Assembly (NCBI GenBank): GCA_002162075.1
Contig: CP021423.1
Coordinates: 1,736,001-1,800,000, forward strand
Length of the DNA stretch: 64,000 bases
Direction: 5' to 3'
Origin: Armatimonadetes bacterium Uphvl-Ar1
Lineage (GTDB): Bacteria > Armatimonadota > Fimbriimonadia > Fimbriimonadales > Fimbriimonadaceae
The stretch's first letter is position 1. Each line of letters starts with the position of its first letter. Made by a program: the position numbers and the translations under genes. The notes beneath the pieces are model-generated. The model was not told the origin of the DNA, ran no database searches, and saw only the letters and a program-made list of their open reading frames with translations. This document shows, piece after piece, positions 56,528 to 62,402 of the stretch.

Positions 56528-58132
56528 CTACCCGCGCGGTGCCCGCTCCAGCAGCTTCGCCGCTTTCAGCTTCCCTTGCAAGTTCCCCACTTCATACTCC
56601 GACCCAAACAGGAACGCTGTCCGCCCCTCACTATCCAAAACCCGCTTGCAACCCGTCGGCAAATAAACCCCCGTTAATTCACCCAAATCCCCCTCAAACC
56701 ACCGAATCAACCGCTGACTCATCACGCCAAAATCCGTCTTCACCCCATATTCAGCCTCCAGGCGGAACTTCACAACCTCAAACTGGAGCATCCCAATCGC
56801 CCCCAAGATGTACTGCTTCGTATCAGATCTCGGATCAGAGTAAAGCTCCACGAGCCCCTCAGCCGCGAGCTGCAAAACCCCCTTGTCATAATGCTTAAAC
56901 CGCGACGAATCGTAGTTCGTCAAACTCGCAAAAATCTCCGGCGTAAAGGCCGGAACCTCCGCATATTCCACCTTATTCCCCGTCGTCAAAGTATCCCCGA
57001 GGAGCAAAAATCCCGGGTTCGGAATCCCAATAATATCCCCCGGAAACGCCTCCTCAATAATCTCCCGGTCACTCCCAAAAACCCTCTGCGGGCGCGACAA
57101 CTTCAGCTTCTTCCCACTCTGAACGTGGGTCACTTCCATGTCTTTCTCAAAGACCCCACTCACAATCCGAATAAACGCAATCCTGTCCCGGTGTTCTGGG
57201 TTCATATTCGCCTGAATCTTGAACACAAACGCCGAAAACTCGTCTTCCGTCTTGGTTACTCCCCCCGCCACATTCTCCCGCCCATGCGGAGCCGGCGCAA
57301 TCCCCACAAATGAATTCAAAAACGCCTCAACCCCAAAATTCGTGAGCGCCGAACCAAAGTACATCGGCGACTGCTTCCCTTGTTTCACCAGTTCAAAGTC
57401 AAGCTGATCATGCGCCACATCCAGCAATTCAATATCATCCATCAACTGCGCGTAGTTCTTCTCCCCCAAAACCTCTCGCGCACGCGGATCATCAATGTGA
57501 ATCGAATCCGTCTCCACCTTCTTCGCCCCCCGCGCTCCCCGCTGATAAAGCGAAACCGTCTTGCTCGCCCGGTCATAAACCCCCCGGAAATCGATCCCCT
57601 CTCCAATCGGCCAATTCATCGGCACACACGTCATCCCCAGCGCCTCGTCAATGTCTTCCATGATCGTCAGCGGCCCCAGACCATCGTGGTCAAGCTTATT
57701 GACGAATGTGAAAATTGGTATCCCCCGATCCGAACAGACCGTGAACAACTTCCGTGTCTGCGCCTCCACACCTTTTGCATAGTCAACAATCATCACCGCA
57801 CTATCCGCCGCTGTGAGCGTACGATATGTATCCGCACTAAAATCATTATGCCCCGGCGTATCAAGCAGGTTCAACATGTACTCCCGATACGGGAACTGCA
57901 ACACCGTCGAAGTAACAGAAATCCCCCGCTGCTTTTCCAGTTCCATCCAGTCCGAAGTCGCCTTTTTGCCGCTCGACTTCGCCTTCACTGAACCAGCACT
58001 CTGGATCGCCCCGCTATAAAGCAACAGTTTTTCTGTCAAGGTCGTCTTCCCTGCGTCCGGGTGCGAAATAATCGCAAACGTCCGCCGCTTTTCGACCTCA
58101 ATCCCAAAACTCCGCTCCATTGTTGAACTCAT
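56528..58132 (-). CDS. prfC: Peptide chain release factor 3
   Basis: RF3 is the GTPase that recycles RF1/RF2 from terminated ribosomes. The 534-residue protein has G1 SHPDAGKTTLTEKLLLYSGA, switch I ATSDWMELEKQRGISVTSTV, G3 LLDTPGHNDFSADTYRTLTA and G4 FVNKLDHDG. Domain II follows (ANMNPEHRDRIAFIRIVSG) and then the RF3-specific C-terminus with YGVKTDFGVMSQRLIRW. I chose the start at 58132 (MSSTMERSFGIEVEKR) because the frame further upstream has no family match. GGTGAGG lies nine bases before it. Confidence 0.95.
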   Translation of the reverse strand: MSSTMERSFGIEVEKRRTFAIISHPDAGKTTLTEKLLLYSGAIQSAGSVKAKSSGKKATSDWMELEKQRGISVTSTVLQFPYREYMLNLLDTPGHNDFSADTYRTLTAADSAVMIVDYAKGVEAQTRKLFTVCSDRGIPIFTFVNKLDHDGLGPLTIMEDIDEALGMTCVPMNWPIGEGIDFRGVYDRASKTVSLYQRGARGAKKVETDSIHIDDPRAREVLGEKNYAQLMDDIELLDVAHDQLDFELVKQGKQSPMYFGSALTNFGVEAFLNSFVGIAPAPHGRENVAGGVTKTEDEFSAFVFKIQANMNPEHRDRIAFIRIVSGVFEKDMEVTHVQSGKKLKLSRPQRVFGSDREIIEEAFPGDIIGIPNPGFLLLGDTLTTGNKVEYAEVPAFTPEIFASLTNYDSSRFKHYDKGVLQLAAEGLVELYSDPRSDTKQYILGAIGMLQFEVVKFRLEAEYGVKTDFGVMSQRLIRWFEGDLGELTGVYLPTGCKRVLDSEGRTAFLFGSEYEVGNLQGKLKAAKLLERAPRG

Positions 58133-58210: not shown

Positions 58211-59401
58211 ATGCTGATCGCCCTTACTGCCGTCCTTCTCACGCAAATCAGCCCCGGCCCAAGCCACATCCCCACCGCACAAAACTACCGCGATTACCTC
58301 GCCTTCGTTCAGCCCAACGCTGCCGAAACCAAATACAAAGACATTGCTTGGCGCAACACATTCTGGCCCGCTGTCCAAGAAGCCAAAAAACTCGGTCGCC
58401 CTATCCTGTTCTGGACAATGAACGGGCACCCCCTCGGCTGTACGTGAAACAATGGCGTCCGCGGACGTCAGTTGGTCTGGTCAGACCCGGAAATCATCAA
58501 ACTCAGCACTCAATTCGTCACCGTCGCCGACGAAGTCTATATGCTCTACCCCGAGGATCAGTGGAACCTCGACCGAGTCAAGAACGACCCCGCTCACCTC
58601 TTTTTCAAGAAATTCGGCGAGAGCGTTCCCAAAGATAACTGGAACCATCCCGGCACTAAACAAGGCGTCTACATGATGGGCCCGAACGGCGAATACCTTG
58701 AAGCCAAATTTGCCGCTGCCGCCAACCCAGCCGATATCCTCGCCCGGATGAAACGCGCCCTCAACCGTTGGGAAACCATCAAAGCTGAAAAAGGCTACCA
58801 AGACCTCCCCATCCCCGCCGTCAAACCGACTCACCCACCAGAAATCACCGGCCAACTGATCTTCCGCGTCAATTCTCGCGACCTTCCACGTGGCAACGGC
58901 GACCAATCCGGTCTGCGAATCACCCCCGCCGAGCAACGCCAATCCCAAGGCTGGCCGGATTTCACCAAGTGGGCTTGGAACGAATCATGGGTTGGCCTGC
59001 CAACTACCCAGAGTTTCGTCCCCAAATCTAACCAATCTGAGGAAGTGAACCAACGCGATCTCCGGGCCATCGCCCGTATTGCCCTCCTCGACAACGTCCG
59101 TGGTCAAAACCCTGAATGGCGCGAGCAAGATATCAAGTCAATCACCCTCACAATGCGCCGAATCACAACCAAAAACGGCCTCCAAACTATCCAATACACT
59201 GGAAAAGCAACGATCTCCGACGGCAACAAATCCTATTCGCCAACTTGTTATGGCGAAGGAATTTTCAATCCAGAAACCCAGCGTTTCAATTCCCTGGATC
59301 TCGTCTGGATCGGCCCCCGATCCGGTGCTGCCCAGTTCAACCAACGAGAAGAAGACCAAGGCCCCGCCCCCATGGGCATCACCCTGAGCCTATTTCAATA
59401 G
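58211..59401 (+). CDS. Probable selenoprotein: exported thioredoxin-fold protein with Cys-Thr-Sec (in-frame UGA)
   Basis: One frame runs 58211-59401 with a single UGA at codon 79. Before it: a signal-like MLIALTAVLLTQ, the YKDIAWRNTFWPAVQEAKKL helix, and GRPILFWTMNGHPLGCT; then UGA; then NNGVRGRQLVWSDPEIIKLS and the FVTVADEVYML strand. This is a thioredoxin-like beta-alpha-beta with C77-T-U79 at the redox-motif position, and DPEIIKL continuing as in thioredoxin_7 proteins. Unlike the other broken genes here, the frame itself is not shifted. A hairpin with a G-led loop follows the UGA at bacterial SECIS distance. With Sec read the protein has 396 residues; the 200-residue C-terminal domain is unrecognised. 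A nonsense mutation is the alternative. Confidence 0.7.
58474..58487 (+). promoter_or_regulatory. SECIS-like hairpin
   Basis: GGTCT, loop GGTC, AGACC starts 26 nt after the UGA at 58445-58447, putting the loop 31 nt from it; bacterial SECIS loops lie about 16-37 nt away and begin with G. The loop GGTC recalls the E. coli fdhF loop. A second palindrome (CGTCCGCGGACG) lies between the UGA and this hairpin. Confidence 0.5.
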
Positions 59402-59535: not shown

Positions 59536-62402
59536 ATGATCACTGCAACTGTCCTGCTCGCCAGCCTCATAACCGCGCAGAACAACCCGCGGGTTCAAGC
59601 CGATTCGTTTTCTCTCGAAATTCCTCAAAAGTACCGTCACCAGGTCAAAACGACAAGCATTTTCCTAACGCAGTCAGCGGGAATGAACTCAACCCGAATT
59701 GGGTTCACATTTGAAGGGAAGGTCGCCGATCCTCAAGCCCTCCACGAGCGACTCTGGACAAAAAATGCTTCAGGATGGAGTCCCACAAATGTCACCCCCG
59801 ACACGAAGCTCGAAATTGGATCCGCCGTGCTTCTCCATCGATCCGGAACCCTCACCCTCCGAGATACAAAACGATTCGACAGCACCCTTGTATTAACAAC
59901 CCCAGATGGGAGCATCAGCGCATCCGTAACTGCAACCGACTCTCAAAGAGGCATTGAAGGTCTCGCCGACACAATCCAAATGCTGAGAACTGTTCAAACC
60001 GCCAGCGGAGCCATTGCCACGGGCAAACCAGCAGAAACCACGTCGGGAACAAACTCAAGCTCAAATACCGGCACCAATACCGGGACAAATTCAGGGTCAA
60101 CTTCGACATCAACCACCACTACTACGCCCCCCACAACGAAGCCCACCGAAACAAAGCCTCCGGTGACAACACCTCCTCCCACTTCGGCGAAGGACGTTTT
60201 TCCACTCATCAATCCCGATGAAGTCGCTCGAAATGCTCGCCTCATCCGGATTGCTGAAGCTCTTTATCCGCCAGACCCAACTTCTCTCACCGAAAATCAA
60301 GCCTCTGCACTCCTGCAAGAAGCCGTGGAACTGTGCGGCTTCACGCTCCGAAATCCAAACTGGCAAATTGTCAAAAACCCTCCAAAAGACCAAGCCATCG
60401 GCTTGGCTGTCGAAACCTCGGACATTCCCCGTGTTGCCACCCTGTTCACGCAAGGAGCAACTGTTAACTATGCAGATTGGACTGCCGCTCTCGATCAATC
60501 CTGGAGCAAAGTGGTACCAAATTTCAAATCTGCTGAATACATGACCGATTTCATGTATTCAGGAAGAATTCACCCATCCGCCGGATACCGTTCACTCCGG
60601 CACTTCATCAAACAACTCTCCGTTCACTCGATGAACGGAGTACTCATTTCCGACGATAACGCAAAACTTGACGCCATTCAACTCTTCCTCCTGACCAGAT
60701 TGGTCACCGAAGTTGTCCTCCATCCGCTACGCACCGAAGTAGAAAAAGCAAAAACGCTTGAACAACCCCAAACGCATCCTCAACTTCTCGCTTCGAATGC
60801 CTCTTTCACAATTACGCAAGCGGGTGCATTTTCAGGATGGACTGAAGACTTTGCCTCCTACGCCTCTGGTCAATACTTCAACAAAGTTCGAGATATGGTC
60901 ATTGAAGCCCTTGATCCACTCAATGGCTCAGACAAAATCGACAAACTAGGAAACTTTGCTGATGCCGCCGGAGCCATCGGATCCATCATAAAGTTCATTT
61001 GCTCCTATGCCTACCTCACAGGCGAACTCAAAGTCCTCCCCCAGGAAATCCTCTCACCCGCCGCATTGAAGGAGACGGTGGTGAAGAACGAACCATGCAA
61101 GCCAAGTTCATGATCGATGGTTCAAAAATCCAAGACTTCCTCAAGGAGAATCGCCTCATTCTGAACTCTATCACCGGCGGAACCCTCGATTTTGATTCAC
61201 CCAAGACCAGCCCAATAACCGGACGACATCAATGGGAAATCGAACAAGACCGATTCAGCTCTGACAACTTAGCCGTAACCGCAGTGCGTGGCACCGGTGA
61301 TTTCAGCAAGCTTCAAACCGACGAAAACGGAATCACTAAGCTTACTGTCGAAGGGGCACGCCGCCGAAAGCCGCTCGACCGACGTCTTCTCATTCCCTAT
61401 ATTCGGAGAGTCCGCGTCATCGTAACACCGCAAATCAAAGAAACCGAAATGCGACAAGATATCCTCGACGCGTTCACGACATCGTCAGGAATCCGGGGAC
61501 TCACCCCCGGCAAAGTCAGTGCTGGACAAGGCGGCCCGAATGCACTCATCTCCGCCATGAATGCGACATTCGAAACCCTCTACCGCATGAATTGGGCCGG
61601 TGGGCGCTATGTCATCCTTGAAGTAAAAGACTTTATTGAAGCGAACGCCATCGCTTCAGTAAAACTCAATTTCAACTATGATCGCTCATATCACGAATTG
61701 CAGTTCAACTACCAAGCATCGGGCAATGGCAAACTTGAGTCGGATGCAATGCTGATGGGAATCTCTGACTTTGAAGGCACAGGCGGATATCCACCCGGAT
61801 TCACTGAAGAAATGCTGAACGATTTACCCCCGGACATGCGCGCACAATTGCAAGCCGAGATAGACAAATGGCGAAAGGAACAGGCCAATCCCGATAAAGC
61901 CAGCCTCATCGCGACCTATCTCGGTGGAGGCGAACTCCAAACGTCAATTCTTCATTCGCAAGAAGTCAATGGCTTTGAAAGCGATGGGAAACACGATCCC
62001 GGCGGAAACTTCTCCGCAAATGATGAAACGAGCCTCAACCCAACAAAACCTGTCAATCTAAATACTGACAATACCGCGCTGATCATATCGCTATTCAAAA
62101 AGAAAAATGAAGCAAGTGTTTCGTTTGATTTTGGTGAAATGGCGAACTACAAATCCCAGCGGACGGGACGAAAAGGGTTTCCCCCAGTCGCTGAGTTAAA
62201 GGGTATCAATTGGCGCACTGGCCTCGAAATTGAAGGGGAAAGTACTCCTTTCAAAACCAGCCTCACATCCAAAAAAACAACCCACGGAACCACTCTCTAT
62301 GAGGGTTTTGTCAGTCGCCATCTAACATTCAATAAAGAGAGAATCGGACGCGTCAACTTCGATTGGAAACTCGAAATCAAAGATCCGACTCCGCCAAAAT
62401 AA
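59536..62402 (+). CDS. Large secreted protein of unknown function with Thr/Ser/Pro linker (one-base frameshift)
   Basis: I do not recognise this 955-residue protein. A signal peptide (ITATVLLASLITAQ) leads to an N-terminal domain of about 140 residues resembling a PsbP-like or DUF1795 lipoprotein module (FSLEIPQKYRHQV). Next comes a long Thr/Ser/Pro-rich linker (residues 165-215), then a helical region and, after the frameshift near 61085-61105, a beta-rich C-terminal half with ILEVKDFIEANAIASVKLNF and repeated GGG turns. The two frames join naturally around KVLPQEILSPAALKE. Probably an extracellular multidomain protein. The phosphoesterase gene follows 45 bp later. Confidence 0.7.

Follow-up and report, generated by a model that had tools for sequence, protein, structure and literature searches.

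An in-frame UGA that almost certainly encodes selenocysteine in a thioredoxin-fold protein of a seemingly undescribed Armatimonadota family

In the genome of Armatimonadetes bacterium Uphvl-Ar1, a gene that looks interrupted by an in-frame UGA is almost certainly not broken and, judging from sequence comparison, this UGA almost certainly encodes selenocysteine (Sec) in a redox protein that is probably exported. The gene lies in the window analyzed here, a stretch of 64,000 nucleotides of contig CP021423.1. Taken as a whole, we hold with high confidence that this is a selenoprotein of a seemingly undescribed Armatimonadota family, with a UGA that would be read by SelB and a product that would act as an exported thiol/selenol redox enzyme. 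The preliminary description of this DNA had proposed a selenoprotein, and the proposal is now supported by the Sec machinery of the host, 71 family copies with TGA, selection on both sides of the codon and a downstream hairpin. Armatimonadota thus gain a selenoprotein family that occurs across the phylum, often in several copies, and seems not to have been described before.

The reading frame across the UGA

The frame has 396 codons, starts with the ATG at 58211 and ends with the TAG at 59399-59401, and its sole in-frame TGA is codon 79 (Table 1). The preliminary description had reported one frame broken only by the UGA at 58445-58447; on re-reading, these coordinates were found to be correct and the residues around codon 79 are the ones it quoted (GRPILFWTMNGHPLGCT-U-NNGVRGRQLVWSDPEIIKLS). 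By codon-usage score on both sides, the codon 79 site ranks first among all TGA-bridged pairs of open frames in the window, and the otherwise open frame across the UGA is more than chance. Comparison with three relatives gave dN/dS values of 0.04-0.07 upstream of the TGA and 0.06-0.09 downstream, which by this estimate means strong purifying selection before as well as after the codon. Ordinary gene calling splits the window gene into a stub of 78 residues and a second fragment downstream, and therefore the family is probably misannotated in most of the genomes that carry it.

Table 1. Features of the gene and of its predicted product, in window positions
Feature	Position	Strand	Basis or remark
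Selenoprotein gene (396 aa via one UGA read-through), almost certainly intact	58211..59401	+	putative export signal, thioredoxin-fold domain, beta-rich C-terminal domain
Hydrophobic N-terminus MLIALTAVLLTQISPGPS, probable export signal	58211..58264	+	read from sequence, judged by eye
Thioredoxin-fold domain, residues 40-196	58328..58798	+	AlphaFold model, VIA-align
Redox motif Cys77-Thr-Sec79-Asn-Asn-Gly-Val	58439..58459	+	
UGA codon 79, almost certainly read as selenocysteine	58445..58447	+	TGA there in 71 distinct family copies; aligned with first Cys of CxxC in 3f9u
First hairpin after the UGA, GGCGUC-CGCG-GACGUC	58454..58469	+	conserved in close homologues; loop nearer the UGA than the usual bSECIS range
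bSECIS-like hairpin GGUCU-GGUC-AGACC	58474..58487	+	G-led loop 31 nt past the UGA; GGTCT 58474-58478, GGTC 58479-58482, AGACC 58483-58487
Gln151-Gly152	58661..58666	+	invariant Gly where thioredoxin folds have cis-Pro
Beta-rich C-terminal domain, residues 205-396	58823..59398	+	AlphaFold model

Distribution of the family and the residue at the Sec position

A first homologue search with the read-through protein against 61 relatives gave full-length matches with frames broken only by TGA, and the same TGA is found in every close homologue. For the phylum, a profile made from 28 members was searched against 291 Armatimonadota genomes, of which 63 contain family matches. Among the loci that were read, TGA stands in frame at the codon 79 position in 71 distinct copies, which answers the question of homologous codons raised in the preliminary description. 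The TGA copies are spread over many families of the phylum and are retained by all deep paralogue groups, with identity to the window protein going down to 19% among aligned Sec copies. Motifs of these groups include GHPLGCTU-NNGVRGR (the group of the window gene), GHPTGCTU-NNGQADKR, GHPMGCTU-NNGLWDRR and FGDPRGHCU-QNGVKTR. Outside Armatimonadota no match was found among 397 relatives, at least 106 of which lie beyond the 291 phylum genomes, a sample that is less than a full survey.

The host genome contains three family copies with three different motifs. Its two paralogues of the window gene, likewise read as selenoproteins, are located on the chromosome at 1155653-1156765 on the - strand (L088, motif GHPTGCTU-NNG) and at 1877787-1878983 on the + strand (L106, motif FGDPRGHCU-QNG).

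In the copies that were read, the residue at the Sec position is Sec in 71, Cys in one full-length copy and Ser or Asp in four. The full-length homologue (L109) has a CDDC in which a Cys takes precisely the place of Sec, and Cys is also aligned with Sec in distant single-domain relatives of the thioredoxin-7 type (L038 and L039). The four Ser/Asp copies (L037, L040, L112 and L116) have a motif without Cys and form one clade that adjoins the group of the window gene (support 100/99). A tRNA-Sec was not found in three of their four genomes (G031, G152 and G170), while G012 has one. These four copies look like redox-dead descendants.

Selenocysteine machinery in the host and the phylum

The complete 2.99 Mb chromosome that carries the window gene also carries a tRNA-Sec (73.9 bits, anticodon TCA), SelA (430 bits; cut-off 268), SelB (351.7 bits; cut-off 242) and SelD (348 bits; cut-off 125). 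Thus all four components that the preliminary description named as a genome check are present, with the proteins above curated cut-offs. The SelD gene of the host (L050, chromosome 2772333-2773256) has an in-frame TGA of its own and therefore SelD is probably a selenoprotein too.

Across the phylum, tRNA-Sec is found in 44 of the 50 genomes with a TGA copy as compared to 110 of the 241 others (Fisher p = 1.6e-8, which overstates independence because the counted genomes are related). In the six other TGA-copy genomes the search detected no tRNA-Sec; five of these are 73-88% complete and one (G074) is 97% complete, in about 620 contigs. Altogether tRNA-Sec was detected in 154 of 291 Armatimonadota genomes and selenocysteine use is therefore widespread in this phylum. 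A few genomes, such as G050, G122 and G195, have two tRNA-Sec matches.

RNA hairpins downstream of the UGA

In the published bSECIS model the loop lies 16-37 nt after the UGA, with a G in the first two loop positions, a stem of at least 4 bp and an energy of -7.5 kcal/mol or lower, and some bSECIS elements lie outside this model (PMC13188914). The hairpin GGTCT-GGTC-AGACC, with its G-led loop 31 nt after the UGA, is found as the preliminary description had given it, and 15 of 16 close homologues keep it intact. When it was assessed by the published model, its loop distance, loop G and stem length agreed with the bSECIS geometry, but its energy of -4.7 to -5.0 kcal/mol falls short of the limit. 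For the window gene alone, the hairpin energy is not unusual against synonymous shuffles (z -0.89).

In the family, the best hairpin of bSECIS geometry in the 60 nt past the UGA was compared with 100 synonymous-codon shuffles per gene, and the same scan was run in 22 control windows elsewhere in these genes. Next to the UGA, z averaged -1.76, as compared to -0.35 to +0.35 in the control windows, and -7.5 kcal/mol was reached by 46% of the family copies, as compared to 1-17%. The plain folding energy of the 42 nt past the UGA gave a weaker signal than the hairpin of SECIS geometry, with a mean z of -0.61, the lowest of the 23 windows.

In a subgroup with its loop ~19 nt past the UGA, five of six stem pairs have changes on both sides and there are 14 compensatory double-change cells where 4.9 are expected, a number reached in 0 of 1000 shuffles. 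In the subgroup of the window gene (16 distinct sequences) covariation tells little, as the stem hardly varies: 16 of 16 have the codons GTC for Val, TCA for Ser and GAC for Asp. TCA makes up just 13% of the Ser codons in these genes, and it is fixed at this place because the stem requires that rare codon. Codon-level conservation over codons 1-16 past the UGA is 0.83 as compared to 0.58 in other amino-acid-invariant columns (p = 6e-5). The first hairpin shows a similar preference, with the Gly codon GGA in 14 of 16 sequences and a usage of 16%. We favour the GGUC-loop hairpin over this first one as the SelB contact because it follows the distance and loop rules.

Compared to the described bSECIS elements (PMC13188914), the family hairpins are alike in having a G in the first two loop positions and a loop 18-35 nt past the UGA. 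They differ in the subgroup of the window gene, where the stem is only 5 bp with about -4.7 kcal/mol and is preceded by a second conserved hairpin.

Predicted structure of the protein

The hydrophobic N-terminus suggests that the product is exported, and more typical signal peptides are seen in homologues L025 and L027. The AlphaFold model, made with 28 aligned members, has a mean pLDDT of 88.6 and a pTM of 0.86. In VIA-align, residues 40-196 of the model matched 3f9u with Z 12.5 (rmsd 1.8 Å over 105 residues), ERp19 with Z 11.3, AGR2/AGR3 with about 10.9 and DsbD-gamma with about 9.7, and the thioredoxin-like unit that the preliminary description had recognized around the UGA is in agreement with this model. 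When the profile is aligned with 3f9u, Sec79 is matched to the first Cys of C-V-N-C and, in the model, it stands immediately before the helix that starts at residue 80. Where CxxC has its second Cys, the window protein has Gly82. It had been suggested that the UGA, two residues past a Cys, is at the redox-motif position; this holds for the position, with the refinement that Sec itself, and not Cys77, takes the place of the nucleophilic Cys of CxxC. Cys77 is common in the family and not universal, as is seen in the GTTU and GMTU variants. The cis-proline that faces the active site in thioredoxin folds is absent, and the invariant Gly152 is aligned instead with the proline of 'AQPFYV' in 3f9u, which is at the thioredoxin cis-Pro place.

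Residues 205-396 form a beta-rich domain that is mostly confident in the AlphaFold model. No Pfam family was matched by this domain alone, and its best Foldseek match was no better than E 0.26. In VIA-align its best Z was 6.6, with various beta barrels (OmpA, avidin and others), a value within noise.

Discussion

Based on the data above, the following mechanism can be suggested. SelB with Sec-tRNA-Sec would read the UGA as selenocysteine, and the exported product would be a putative thiol/selenol redox enzyme with a fold of the thioredoxin-7/DsbD-gamma/AGR class. In this enzyme, Sec79 is predicted to cap the N-terminus of the first active-site helix, the usual place of the nucleophilic CxxC cysteine, and would attack the substrate, for which a disulfide, a sulfenic acid or a peroxide are candidates. 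The selenenyl-sulfide may then be resolved by Cys77 (CxU) or, in paralogues without Cys77, by a partner thiol, and the C-terminal beta-rich domain is probably used for recognition or localisation.

It could be argued that the TGA is a true nonsense mutation or a wrong base call over a normal sense codon, as the preliminary description mentioned other interrupted genes in the assembly of the window. However, a base error is untenable because dozens of genomes that were assembled independently have TGA at this very codon (71 distinct copies), and the conserved TGA in the homologues together with low dN/dS on both sides, including strong purifying selection downstream, and the RNA-level constraint past the TGA leave this explanation with a negligible probability. 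A second alternative is ordinary read-through or reassignment of the UGA (by a tRNA-Trp-like suppressor, for example), or two proteins with a programmed stop. From the sequence of the window gene alone, read-through is not separable from selenocysteine, and a product ending at residue 78 would be the default if Sec is limiting. Yet tRNA-Sec, SelA, SelB and SelD are all in the host, the family tracks tRNA-Sec and the hairpin has bSECIS geometry. Moreover, the site is the redox nucleophile position, with Cys there in distant relatives and in one full-length homologue, and a programmed stop would end the protein midway through the thioredoxin fold, which makes a decoding without selenocysteine very improbable. 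A selenoprotein that is not an oxidoreductase, in which Sec binds a metal or acts as a selenium/sulfur carrier, can also be proposed, considering that the resolving Cys is missing in some paralogues and that the invariant Gly152 replaces cis-Pro. In thioredoxins cis-Pro shields the active site from metals, and losing it can permit metal binding. Against such a role, the Sec site is where thioredoxin folds have their redox nucleophile, and redox roles are thought to be held by most selenoproteins (PMC13188914); we consider it rather unlikely.

The last alternative regards novelty, namely that these proteins are a divergent branch of an already named selenoprotein family, Trx7/PDZ (NF041199) or VPGUxxT (NF041382 and NF041383). 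All have a thioredoxin-like N-terminal domain, and some of our members show marginal, sub-threshold matches in the thioredoxin part (best E 0.0045 for NF041383, 0.07 for NF041382 and 0.2 for NF041199). But the cut-offs are 275-350 bits and the members scored reach only ~10-14, none of the three models is matched by the window protein, its C-terminal half resembles none of them, and the Sec motif is CTUNNG, not VPGUxxT or CxxU. A branch of a named family is therefore quite unlikely. In NF041199, catalogued as a CxxU selenoprotein (PMC13188914), Sec is similarly inside a thioredoxin-7-type domain, whereas the window family has CxU, no recognised PDZ-like part and ~10-13 bits against a cut-off of 300. 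The VPGUxxT families likewise bear Sec in a thioredoxin-like N-terminal domain, with the weak similarity of some members located there, and differ in the motif and in the C-terminal half.

The window protein itself has no match in Pfam or NCBIfam (E up to 1) and none in PHROGs; Pfam Thioredoxin_7 (PF13899) was matched by four of the 28 members at E up to 1, with a best E of 2.3e-4. As compared to the Thioredoxin_7/DsbD-gamma/AGR2-AGR3-ERp19 class and 3f9u, the thioredoxin fold of residues 40-196 is similar (VIA-align Z 9-12.5), as is a 'W(S/T)DP' segment past the active-site helix, and Sec79 is at the first Cys of CxxC. In contrast to them, CTU-NNG of our family has no second Cys three residues on, Gly152 stands for cis-Pro, and the window protein has an extra beta-rich domain of 190 residues and, as a whole, no significant Pfam match. 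Among the 119 prokaryotic selenoprotein families catalogued in 2026 (PMC13188914), none has the motif and architecture of this family, and in the literature searched we found no relevant work on Armatimonadota or Fimbriimonas selenoproteins. From these comparisons the selenoprotein family, spread across the phylum Armatimonadota, appears to be undescribed, in line with the preliminary description; novelty is judged here from Pfam, NCBIfam and the 2026 catalogue, and single members may already be annotated as Sec proteins in deposited records.

Another question is raised by the dominance of Sec in this family. We tentatively suggest, with a little less than even confidence, that it is a near-obligate Sec family, in which the active site, with its CxU or CU motif and Gly for cis-Pro, is adapted to Sec so that Cys seldom takes its place; lineages that lose selenium use would abandon the redox residue for Ser or Asp, and the protein would take another role. 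If true, near-obligate Sec families would be systematically overlooked by searches for Cys/TGA pairs, which are the basis of much selenoprotein discovery. Prediction methods that depend on homologues with Cys are blind to a ratio such as 71 Sec to 1 Cys, and the family offers a test, set up by nature, of the tasks for which Cys does not suffice in a thioredoxin fold.

Within the flanking DNA that was read, the gene neighbourhood, considered as a clue to function, was found conserved only at the copy of the nearest relative, where both RF3 and the downstream genes recur. The gene of peptide chain release factor 3 (RF3; window 56531-58129) is divergent and adjoins the UGA-recoding gene, in the window as beside the copy of the nearest relative, which is probably a coincidence. 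Downstream there are two long genes (window 59536-61110 and 61089-62399) that belong to no Pfam family and are 83-86% conserved in the nearest relative (L010).
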